Notes under the pieces: model-generated | Told to the model about the DNA's origin: nothing | The model's input: the letters and a program-made list of their open reading frames with translations, nothing else | The model's database searches: none | Source of the DNA: Thermoproteota archaeon | GTDB lineage: Archaea > Thermoproteota > Bathyarchaeia > RBG-16-48-13 > GCA-020355125 | DNA length: 33,914 bases | Assembly: GCA_030837285.1 (NCBI GenBank) | Contig: JAUPKU010000021.1 | Span: forward strand, 1-33,914 | Direction of reading: 5' to 3' | Shown here: positions 363 through 20,540 of the stretch, in pieces | How the letters are laid out: every line of letters begins with the position of its first letter | How positions within the stretch are numbered: the stretch's first letter is position 1 | Made by a program: the position numbers and the translations under genes

Positions 363-785
363 TTGACTAGAGGAATATCTGATGAGCGCTCACTCGTAAA
401 GCTCCTCTGGAACAGGGGATTTGCAGTAATGCGAGCTCCAGCCTCAGGCTCCTCAACCAAGATGGCAAGACCAGACATCATAGCCGGAAACAGCAACAGG
501 AACCTACAGTACGCAATTGAAGTGAAGACCACTCACGACGAAGTCTTATACATAGCCAGAGAATCGATAAACCAGCTTGTAGAATTCGCAGAACGCTTCG
601 GTTGCCAGCCGATAGTAGCCCTAAAATTCAAGAGCAGACTGAAATCCTGGATATTCATTCAGCCACAACAACTGATGATCACTCCAGCCCAAAACTATAA
701 GACTACATGCCCCGAAGCACAGAGAATTGGAATTGACTTCAAAACGCTGATAGGCGAAGGAAAACAACTGAAACTAGTTCCTTGA
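363..785 (+). CDS. hjc: Holliday junction resolvase Hjc (archaeal)
   Basis: 140 aa with RGFAVMRAPASGSS...ARPDIIAG...AIEVKTT, the archaeal Hjc nuclease pattern; TTG start preceded by GGAGG (346-350). Confidence 0.9.
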   Translation: MTRGISDERSLVKLLWNRGFAVMRAPASGSSTKMARPDIIAGNSNRNLQYAIEVKTTHDEVLYIARESINQLVEFAERFGCQPIVALKFKSRLKSWIFIQPQQLMITPAQNYKTTCPEAQRIGIDFKTLIGEGKQLKLVP

Positions 786-3904: not shown

Positions 3905-6235
3905 ATGAAGCTTCGATTCTGGCTTTTAGATATAAATGATGCAATTACAGAGAAGGGGGCAGAGATACATTTATGGGGACTAGACGATACTGCCAATCAT
4001 ATACTGGTTGTTGATAAAAGCTTTCCACCATACTTCTATCTCTTACTAGAAGACAAAGCCGATATCAAGGAAGTGGTAAGAGAAATAGAAGTGAAGAAGT
4101 CTCCTGATGCTGTCATTGAAGAAGATTTAGAAAGGAAGTATTTTGGAAAGCCTGTTAAAGCTGTTAAAATCACTTGCAGAGATCCGAATTCAATCGCGAA
4201 AAACACAAATTCTTTAGGAAAAATCAATGGCGTGAAAGCAAGCCTAGAAGATGACATTCGCTACTCCTTTAGATACTTGATTGACAATGACGTTTATCCT
4301 TGTGGCTGGCATGAGATAGATGTTGATAAAATAGAAGAAAAATCTGACAATAAGATAGAAGAAATCTATGTAGCAAAATCTCATCCCAGAGCCATACAAA
4401 AATCTAGCACTCCTTCTCTTAGAATCCTCGCCTTTTCCATTGTTTGCTACAGTCCCAAGGGATCTCCGAAGCCAGATAAGAATCCTGTAGTAATGATTTC
4501 CACCGCCACAAGCAATGGAAAAACGATGCAATTCGTATCTGAAGGATCAAATGACAAGAAAGTAATCGAAAGCTTCATAGAAGGCATACAGACCTATGAC
4601 CCCGACATAATTGTGGGATATGGTTCAAATTCGTTCGAGTGGCCCTTCCTCTTGCAAAGATCGAAGAAACTTGGCATAAAACTTAAAGTAGACAGACAAG
4701 GGGGAGAACCTCATACAAGTGTTTACGGTCATGTATCAGTAACTGGACGAATTAACATAGACTTCTTCGATCTATCCGATGAGATTGAGGAAGTGAAGAT
4801 TAAGACTCTAGAGAATATTGCTGAGTACTTAGGAGCAACTAAAAAGGCTGATGAGATGCTAATCGATGACATGGACATACCTCGGTACTGGGAAGATAAT
4901 AGCAAGCAATCGATCCTATCGGAATACTCCTTGAAGAAAGCTTCAACTATTTTGAGAGTGGGACAGAATCTTCTCAACTTCTCGATGCAGCTCTCCTATT
5001 TAGTAGGTTTGCCCCCAGATCAAATAGGTGCGGCGGCAGTGGGTTTTAGGACGGAATCCTACCTAATCAGACAAGCTTACAAGATTAAGGAGTTGATTCC
5101 CCATAGAATAGAAAGACCTTACTTCCCTTACAAAGGTGCCACTGTCCTTGAGCCAAAGCCCGGACTCCATGGGAAAACCGCTGTCTTGGACTTTAGATCT
5201 ATGTATCCAAACATTATGATAGCCAAAAACATTTCGCCAGATACATATCTCGAATCTGGAGAAAAGAATCCCTACTTAGGAGTATATGTTGCACCTGAAA
5301 TGGGGTATTCATTTAGGAAGAGCCCTCCGGGTTTTTACAATAAAGTCCTATCAACCCTGATTGAGGCAAGGGACGATATCAGAGACAAACTGAAGAATAC
5401 TGATCCTAAAAAGACAGAGTATAGAGTTCTGGATTCAAGGCAAAGAGCAGTCAAGATAATAACAAACGCTGTCTATGGTTACGCGGGTTGGATAGGCGCT
5501 AGATGGTATGTCCGTGAAGTCGCAGAAGCTACGGCTGCTTGGGGTAGATACACAATTGCTCATGCTATAGATCTAGCTGAAAAAGAAGGATTAGAAGTGA
5601 TTTATGGAGATACCGATAGTCTCTTCGTCTTATTTGACTCTGAGAAGATCGATCGCTTCATAGAAGATGTTCAAAGAGATTTAGGTTTAGAAATTAGTGC
5701 TAACGAAGTCTATGAGCGTATCTTCTTCACAGAAGCAAAGAAACGGTATGCAGGAATATTCACTGATGGACGACTTGACATAGTAGGATTAGAGGTTGCA
5801 AGAGGTGATTGGAGCGAGGCTGCCAAGAGAGTCCAAGAAGGCATCTTGGAAATAATTTTGAAAGGGAAGATAATTCAAAAGGCTACATCCTTCGTTCGGC
5901 AATACATCTTAGACCTCAGGGAAGGAAAGATTCCGTTCAGTGACCTAATAATCTGGAAGACACTAACAAGAGATGTGTCTGAATATGTGGTAAAGGTTCC
6001 TCACGCTGAAGCTGCTAAACGCCTTCTGAGGGAGGGATGGGAGGTAGCACGTGGAGATAAGATTGGCTTCGTCATTGTCAAAGGAAGAGGAAAGCTTCAT
6101 GAAAGAGCTGTTCCCTATTCTATTGCTACATATAGCGAAATTGACCTTGCATTCTATGAGGAACAGCAGATTATCCCGGCAGCAAGTAGAATCTTATCAA
6201 TCTTCAATGTTCCAATTGAAAGTCTAAAGCCCTAA
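3905..6235 (+). CDS. polB: family-B DNA polymerase with degenerate 3'-5' exonuclease motifs
   Basis: 776 aa; motif A DFRSMYPNIM, motif B KIITNAVYGYAG, motif C YGDTDSLFV; PolB linker QLSYLVGLPPDQIGAAAVGFRTESYL. Confidence 0.93.
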   Translation: MKLRFWLLDINDAITEKGAEIHLWGLDDTANHILVVDKSFPPYFYLLLEDKADIKEVVREIEVKKSPDAVIEEDLERKYFGKPVKAVKITCRDPNSIAKNTNSLGKINGVKASLEDDIRYSFRYLIDNDVYPCGWHEIDVDKIEEKSDNKIEEIYVAKSHPRAIQKSSTPSLRILAFSIVCYSPKGSPKPDKNPVVMISTATSNGKTMQFVSEGSNDKKVIESFIEGIQTYDPDIIVGYGSNSFEWPFLLQRSKKLGIKLKVDRQGGEPHTSVYGHVSVTGRINIDFFDLSDEIEEVKIKTLENIAEYLGATKKADEMLIDDMDIPRYWEDNSKQSILSEYSLKKASTILRVGQNLLNFSMQLSYLVGLPPDQIGAAAVGFRTESYLIRQAYKIKELIPHRIERPYFPYKGATVLEPKPGLHGKTAVLDFRSMYPNIMIAKNISPDTYLESGEKNPYLGVYVAPEMGYSFRKSPPGFYNKVLSTLIEARDDIRDKLKNTDPKKTEYRVLDSRQRAVKIITNAVYGYAGWIGARWYVREVAEATAAWGRYTIAHAIDLAEKEGLEVIYGDTDSLFVLFDSEKIDRFIEDVQRDLGLEISANEVYERIFFTEAKKRYAGIFTDGRLDIVGLEVARGDWSEAAKRVQEGILEIILKGKIIQKATSFVRQYILDLREGKIPFSDLIIWKTLTRDVSEYVVKVPHAEAAKRLLREGWEVARGDKIGFVIVKGRGKLHERAVPYSIATYSEIDLAFYEEQQIIPAASRILSIFNVPIESLKP

Positions 6236-7542: not shown

Positions 7543-7827
7543 GCGATGGATCTAAGTGGGAGCTAGGGGTTCCCGAAGGAGCGCAAGCTTCGACCGCAAA
7601 CCCCCTTCATGGCGGACGATGCTGGAGTGAGGCGTTTAAGCTCCGCTAACATCAAAGTCTTCAAATGATGAGTATCCGTCCCATAGGGCTGATGGCTGGG
7701 CGAACTTGGCCAGGCTCGGAAGAGAGCAACCTAACCCTGGCTGTTCAGCGCTTAGGGGGTGGCGGATACGAGTGAGGAGGCGAGGTGTTGGTGGAAAACC
7801 GAGCGTCGATCTTCAGTGATCCATCGC
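7543..7827 (+). ncRNA. ffs: signal recognition particle RNA (archaeal 7S RNA)
   Basis: Helix 8 signature GGCGAACTTGGCCAGGCTCGGAAGAGAGCAACCTAACCCTGGCTG; 5' GCGATGGATC pairs with 3' GATCCATCGC (closing helix 1), about 285 nt. Confidence 0.92.
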
Positions 7828-19875: not shown

Positions 19876-20418
19876 TTAGACGTAAATGTTGATTACCTTA
19901 CTTCTCTGCAATATTCCAATTATTAGTGCACAGACAATTATGCTTGGGATGATGTAGGTTCCATTATACACTGCAGAGTAAACTATTGGACTCATCCCCG
20001 CTGGCGCATAATCGGCAAAGTAGACTACACCTGAAACGAAGTGACTTATGAATCGACCTATGCCACCCACGACAACACCGATGATTGGAAGCTTCTGGAA
20101 GAATCCTGCAAGTCCAAGGCAGGCGAATGGTAAAGGATAATCAAGGATGAATTGGACAGGGTTTACGATAAAAGGTTCAATAGTAAGGTCGACTACCCCG
20201 AATACTGCGCCTGCAAATATGCCTATTTTAGGTCCTCTTCTTAGTGCAAGCCAAAAGATAGGTATCATCCCAAGGTTTATTGATCCGCCTTGTGGTAGAT
20301 TGAAGAAGGAATGGCTTAGGAGGCTTAACGTCCCTGCCAAAGCCACCATTATTATTATTTCTGCGAGTATTTTTGTTGAGAAAATAGATTTTCTATTGAT
20401 GTTATTTGGTTGTTTCAT
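19876..20418 (-). CDS. thiT: ECF transporter S component, ThiT-like (energy-coupled thiamine transporter)
   Basis: Hydrophobic 180 aa; SFFNLPQGGSINLGMIPIFWLALRRGPKIGIFAGAVFGVVDL and DYPLPFACLGLAG; directly preceded by a TPP riboswitch. Confidence 0.88.
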   Translation of the reverse strand: MKQPNNINRKSIFSTKILAEIIIMVALAGTLSLLSHSFFNLPQGGSINLGMIPIFWLALRRGPKIGIFAGAVFGVVDLTIEPFIVNPVQFILDYPLPFACLGLAGFFQKLPIIGVVVGGIGRFISHFVSGVVYFADYAPAGMSPIVYSAVYNGTYIIPSIIVCALIIGILQRSKVINIYV

Positions 20419-20426
20419 TTTTTTTT

Positions 20427-20520
20427 CCCTCCGCCAGTATTATCTGGTTCAGGTTCAAAGGGTCGAAGGCGTTTCAGCCATCCTCTCAGCAGGATATTAT
20501 TCCAGCTCCCCTCTAGTCTA
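20427..20520 (-). promoter_or_regulatory. TPP (THI-element) riboswitch
   Basis: Minus strand GAGGGGAGC...GCTGAGAGGATGG...GACCCTTTGAACCTGAACCAGATAATACTGGCGGAGGGA matches the THI-box conserved blocks (GGGG.GC, CTGAGA, ACCC, GAACCTGA..CxGATAATxCxGGCG.AGGGA). Confidence 0.95.
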
Positions 20521-20540
20521 ACCTAATGAAGACGTTTCTT

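Follow-up and report, generated by a model that had tools for sequence, protein, structure and literature searches.

A PolB3-family DNA polymerase with an intact polymerase site and a dismantled proofreading site, shared by the Bathyarchaeia PolB3s examined

The window analysed here, the whole 33,914-nucleotide stretch of contig C65, comes from a draft genome of 2.74 Mb (281 contigs, completeness 89%). It carries a gene for a family-B DNA polymerase, in the product of which the Pfam domains DNA_pol_B and DNA_pol_B_exo1 are recognised (Table 1). Its neighbours encode the Holliday junction resolvase Hjc, a GNAT protein, a beta-propeller protein, a CxxCxxCC protein and a NIPSNAP protein. The Hjc gene lies ∼3 kb upstream of the polymerase, a linkage unseen in the relatives. 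Elsewhere, the window contains an archaeal signal recognition particle RNA and a TPP riboswitch; a small membrane-protein ORF, probably a thiamine-type transporter, lies just downstream of the riboswitch.

Table 1. Features of the window, with positions, strand and basis of assignment
Feature	Position	Strand	Basis
PolB3-family DNA polymerase gene, exo-dead and pol-intact, 776 aa, ATG start	3905..6235	+	ORF, homology
N-terminal domain, residues 1-165	3905..4399	+	5mdn/KOD alignment, AlphaFold model
Residue 101	4205..4207
Residue 116	4250..4252
Exo I LAFSIVCY, residues 175-182: D->S at 4436-4438, E->V at 4442-4444	4427..4450	+	alignment, codons
Exo II YGSNSFE, residues 239-245: N->G at 240, D->E at 245	4619..4639	+	alignment
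Exo III YSLKK, residues 341-345: D->K at 345	4925..4939	+	alignment
Motif A DFRSMYPNIM, catalytic D429 intact	5189..5218	+	alignment
Motif B KIITNAVYGYAG, K517/Y524 present, intact	5453..5488	+	alignment
Motif C YGDTDS, aspartates D569/D571 both intact	5603..5620	+	alignment
C-terminus PIESLKP, without the clamp-binding-like tail (xxLxDFF) of most relatives	6212..6232	+
Holliday junction resolvase Hjc	363..785	+	PF01870
Archaeal signal recognition particle RNA	7544..7826	+	Rfam RF01857, 99.4 bits
TPP riboswitch	20409..20522	-
Small membrane-protein ORF	19876..20418	-

The closest solved relative of the window polymerase is the Pyrobaculum calidifontis PolB3 (5mdn), matched by phmmer over the whole length with 726 bits, whereas KOD/Pfu-type enzymes score lower (∼355 bits). 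In the AlphaFold model (mean pLDDT 89.9, pTM 0.84), for which Foldseek returns 5mdn as top PDB match (TM 0.88), the full-length N-terminal/exonuclease/polymerase fold of 5mdn is present, and the fold is retained as modelled. The enzyme agrees with the archaeal PolB3s (5mdn, KOD/Pfu and Sulfolobus Dpo3) in its fold and length, in motifs A-C and in its place in the tree. However, the functional Exo I-III carboxylates that are typical of PolB3, a group defined by descent, are absent. Sulfolobus Dpo3 is reported to be exonuclease-active (PMC8764526, PMC7785828).

The exonuclease residues were located through alignment and not by eye; phmmer pairs LAFSIVCY, YGSNSFEWP and YSLKKASTI of the window enzyme with LAFDIEVY, YNSNGFDWP and YVLDDVRST of 5mdn. 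The first-pass annotation had described a dismantled proofreading site beside intact polymerase motifs, and every residue it named was reproduced, namely S178 (codon TCC at 4436), V180 (codon GTT at 4442), G240, E245 and K345. The four carboxylates, D/E/D/D in a functional site, read S/V/E/K, three of the four being gone and the fourth changed from D to E, and the polymerase motifs A (D), B (K...Y) and C (DTD) are intact. Acidic residues shifted nearby could in principle restore the exonuclease site. No compensating acidic residue was found near it among 49 exo-dead and 37 exo-intact PolB3 representatives, and such a rebuilt site was rejected, since the acidic columns specific to the dead clade (322 and 358) fall outside the exonuclease motifs. 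Judged from its residues, the window PolB3 has no 3'-5' proofreading site, and the prediction that it is proofreading-deficient is well supported.

To place the enzyme among its relatives, PolB3s were gathered from a collection of genome contigs, a set of relatives, 251 genomes of the class and 200 genomes of the phylum, and 198 distinct proteins were aligned. By motif check, all 117 distinct Bathyarchaeia PolB3s, the window copy counted, have no more than one of the four carboxylates left, and none retains the Exo I glutamate, a consistency that neither chance nor sequencing error would give. The polymerase pattern D/DD/K/Y is complete in 115 of them, the other two being incomplete or ambiguous reads only. 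Of the 59 PolB3s that belong to the phylum's other classes, 33 keep all four carboxylates, 24 at most one and two keep two, and 18/22 named outgroup rows have all four; the exo-dead clade differs in this respect from crenarchaeal and euryarchaeal PolB3s, which mostly retain the complete set. In the exo-dead representatives, the Exo I glutamate column is never acidic (0/49) and almost always I/L/V, the Exo III aspartate column is acidic in 4% and mostly R or N, and the replacing residues vary. The loss reported for the window gene stands, but the gene is no isolated degenerate case: the loss is ancestral and extends over a whole clade of PolB3. At residue 101, R is near-fixed in exo-intact PolB3s and A prevails in the exo-dead clade; at residue 116, a near-fixed A corresponds to D/E in the exo-dead clade.

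Partial exonuclease losses in G320 and G326 (family f42), G324 and L066 are separate from the exo-dead clade. In f42, a non-Bathyarchaeia family, L223 (G326:C1) and L222 (G320:C1) have partly lost the exonuclease residues (SEDN and DEAK, respectively), and L223 has lost polymerase residues as well; decay in the PolB3s of this family is independent. One relative, L171 (G074:C12), has its frame broken soon after motif C in one MAG, through pseudogene formation or assembly error.

A tree restricted to polymerase-domain columns, in which exonuclease decay is unable to draw rows together, grouped the 49 exo-dead representatives, without exception, as a single clade (99 UFBoot/98 SH-aLRT). This clade was obtained after the rows L223 and L224 had been dropped and a careful search used; in a quick tree including these very long rows the exo-dead group was unresolved. 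A tree of the three families PolB1, PolB2 and PolB3 placed the exo-dead clade, and with it the window enzyme, within PolB3, separate from both other families. Membership of PolB2 was ruled out by this tree and by operon context, the iRadA and PPB2 operon being absent around the window PolB3. The single exo-dead clade makes one ancient loss the simplest reading; it would have come early in a group that takes in further classes of the phylum besides Bathyarchaeia. Three short Bathyarchaeia PolB-like ORFs of 614-661 aa (L261, L262 and L264) form their own well-supported clade; their polymerase motifs are present and their exonuclease motifs are not alignable.

In close pairs of exo-dead PolB3s, Nei-Gojobori dN/dS is mostly 0.05-0.1 in the polymerase domain and 0.05-0.2 in the exonuclease domain, and exo-intact pairs have values of ∼0.02-0.1 in both domains. 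The low values in the polymerase domain indicate that the exo-dead PolB3s are maintained. The exonuclease/polymerase divergence ratio is 1.43 in exo-dead against 1.13 in exo-intact PolB3s, consistent with a constraint on the exonuclease domain that is relaxed but not absent; presumably, the domain is still kept as a structural part.

The next gene, convergent with polB3, belongs to the same family at 31/34 exo-dead and 11/20 exo-intact named loci. On reading its sequence we regard it as a putative archaeal DnaG. This agrees with the published pairing of crenarchaeal polB3 with a convergent dnaG (PMC4104785). The occurrence of the putative dnaG at both kinds of loci argues that exo-dead and exo-intact PolB3s are orthologs. 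The window copy lacks this neighbour, and no damage-response gene was found in a conserved operon with PolB3. Most exo-intact PolB3s end in a SLFDF-type, PCNA-binding-like tail, and RLTDFF, SLMDFM or similar tails are kept in many exo-dead ones. The window enzyme, however, ends in NVPIESLKP, and the same-family relative L009 also lacks a clamp-binding-like tail. The loss of this tail points to a different recruitment or a low processivity of the window enzyme.

A second, exo-intact PolB and PolD are both present in the source genome. PolB1 (contig C94) has the exonuclease residues DEDD, as it does in five relatives, and the PolD subunits DP2 and DP1 are encoded on C230 and C232. DinB is on C260, and a PolB2 gene (C154) is adjoined by iRadA-like and RadA-like genes, named by sequence reading. 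A second PolB2, at G000:C187:12902-14314 (part in L096), shares 56-74% identity with the C154 copy across its pieces, is broken by several in-frame stops and is followed by an amino-acid-permease-like ORF. PolB3 is present in 123/251 genomes of the class and absent from 128/251 (present in 70/120 of good-quality genomes); with about half of the class lacking it, PolB3 appears dispensable and not an essential replicase. The accessory status proposed from the sequence is thus well supported by the exo-intact PolB1, the two PolD subunits and this distribution. Among class genomes, the presence of PolB3 has no association with DinB (60/63/74/54, p=0.17) and a weak negative, non-significant one with PolB2 (47/76/65/63, p=0.06). 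Complementarity with DinB and alternation with PolB2 were accordingly set aside, and these counts identify no partner pathway for PolB3.

Reviews present PolB3 as the broad group of PolB enzymes and ascribe the missing exonuclease site to PolB2 (PMC7544198, PMC4104785, PMC11791011). Exo-dead PolB3 and PolB2 have in common a lost exonuclease site, polymerase activity (predicted for exo-dead PolB3) and an accessory character, but their clades are separate. In PolB2, motif C is often altered and the gene lies beside iRadA/PPB2 (PMC11791011). The Dpo2 of S. islandicus is an active exo-less polymerase that extends from mismatches and lesions (PMC8764526). The first-pass annotation had set the window enzyme against PolB2 as the opposite layout. 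This was overdrawn: PolB2 lacks the same exonuclease site and Dpo2 is an active extender, which makes PolB2 a functional parallel to exo-dead PolB3. As for the likeness to Pol zeta drawn at the same time, the window PolB3 appears by sequence to match its layout: in eukaryotic Pol zeta (Rev3) and Pol alpha the exonuclease domain is inactive and the polymerase domain active (PMC7544198). However, sequence similarity to both is only distant. The C-terminal metal-binding domain of Pol zeta is absent from the window PolB3, which ends at residue 776 in sequence and model, and no conserved operon partner was found that might stand for the accessory subunits of Pol zeta (Rev7 and others). Accessory or repair functions of PolB3/PolB are known from other archaea: polB3 mutants of S. 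islandicus are sensitive to 4-NQO (PMC8100216), and T. kodakarensis PolB acts in repair, not replication (PMC6759347).

We consider it probable that Bathyarchaeia PolB3 lost proofreading once and early, and was kept as an active, non-editing, non-essential accessory polymerase for extension or gap filling. Its distribution and the proofreading replicases PolB1 and PolD in the same genome speak for an accessory status. Its part would be in lesion or mismatch extension or in gap filling; a translesion role of the window enzyme is plausible. Without editing, a PolB3 faced with an unpaired 3' end, encountered or of its own making, could only dissociate or extend. A mismatched or lesion-opposite primer end would not be excised, and there would be no idling between insertion and removal. 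The enzyme would extend ends of this sort, or fill gaps in repair, before PolB1 or PolD takes over and completes synthesis. Extension of this kind is documented behaviour of Pol zeta. It is also documented for the exo-less Dpo2 (PMC8764526), and we therefore propose it for exo-dead PolB3. The bolder claim that this large and ancient subgroup is a dedicated non-proofreading lesion/mismatch extender, fixed in lineages retaining PolD, is put forward tentatively, and we would not yet count on it.

Our results suggest that exo-dead PolB3 is a specialised repair or damage-tolerance enzyme, apparently undescribed; a literature search lacking most subscription journals found no published exo-dead PolB3 clade. 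In the literature we found, the characterised PolB3 enzymes proofread, and the archaeal group recognised as exo-dead is PolB2. If the proposed reading is correct, archaea would have, in addition to PolB2, a second B-family route to mutagenesis and the tolerance of damage, and the view of how PolD, PolB1, PolB2 and PolB3 divide their labour would change with one old loss of PolB3 editing. Kept throughout Bathyarchaeia, one of the abundant classes of sediment archaea, the loss would predict traits of their fidelity and mutagenesis. Exo-dead PolB3s would also offer a natural Pol zeta/alpha layout outside eukaryotes and, for assays, family B enzymes that are exo-minus by nature.

Among other explanations, PolB3 might be an ordinary repair or gap-filling polymerase that can do without proofreading, given that of PolD and PolB1; its loss would then reflect relaxed constraint and not adaptation. 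In the other classes of the phylum, PolD is present in 21/24 genomes with exo-dead PolB3 and absent from 32/33 with the intact one (Fisher 2e-11), which favours this explanation, as do the variable replacing residues and the faster evolution of the exonuclease relative to the polymerase domain. Yet this association is essentially one phylogenetic split, with very few independent events, and is no proof of cause. Moreover, G344 has PolD together with an exo-intact PolB3, as euryarchaea do, and exonuclease-domain dN/dS is mostly well under 0.3, so that we hold simple relaxation to be unlikely. The three exo-dead genomes without PolD may reflect gaps in draft genomes.

Less likely still is a role like that of Pol alpha, in which PolB3 would extend primase-made primers without proofreading and hand over to PolD/PolB1. 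The exonuclease domain of eukaryotic Pol alpha is also inactivated (PMC7544198) and most relatives have the putative dnaG as convergent neighbour. However, this neighbour is found beside exo-intact PolB3s too and so offers no explanation for the exonuclease loss. The two genes are convergent and form no operon, the window copy does without the neighbour, and half of the class does without PolB3. A stand-alone 3'-5' exonuclease might instead proofread in trans and so leave net fidelity unreduced; this we think very improbable, as no linked exonuclease gene was recognised among the recurrent PolB3 neighbours. Finally, the dismantled exonuclease site and the broken frame in one relative (G074/L171) might suggest a degenerating pseudo-enzyme or an assembly artefact, but the full ORF, good fold, strong purifying selection and polymerase residues conserved in essentially all 117 Bathyarchaeia PolB3s refute this almost completely.

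A viral or plasmid origin of the window PolB3 was likewise rejected, the best viral matches being ≤33% and the best plasmid matches 24-28% identical. Two further exo-dead PolB3s have peculiarities of their own. L178 (G210:C157) has ∼500 aa resembling an intein inserted at motif B, and L065, from a record named 'Syntrophaceae bacterium' (DTXE01000049.1), is archaeal and closest to G292, the MAG being probably misnamed or mixed.
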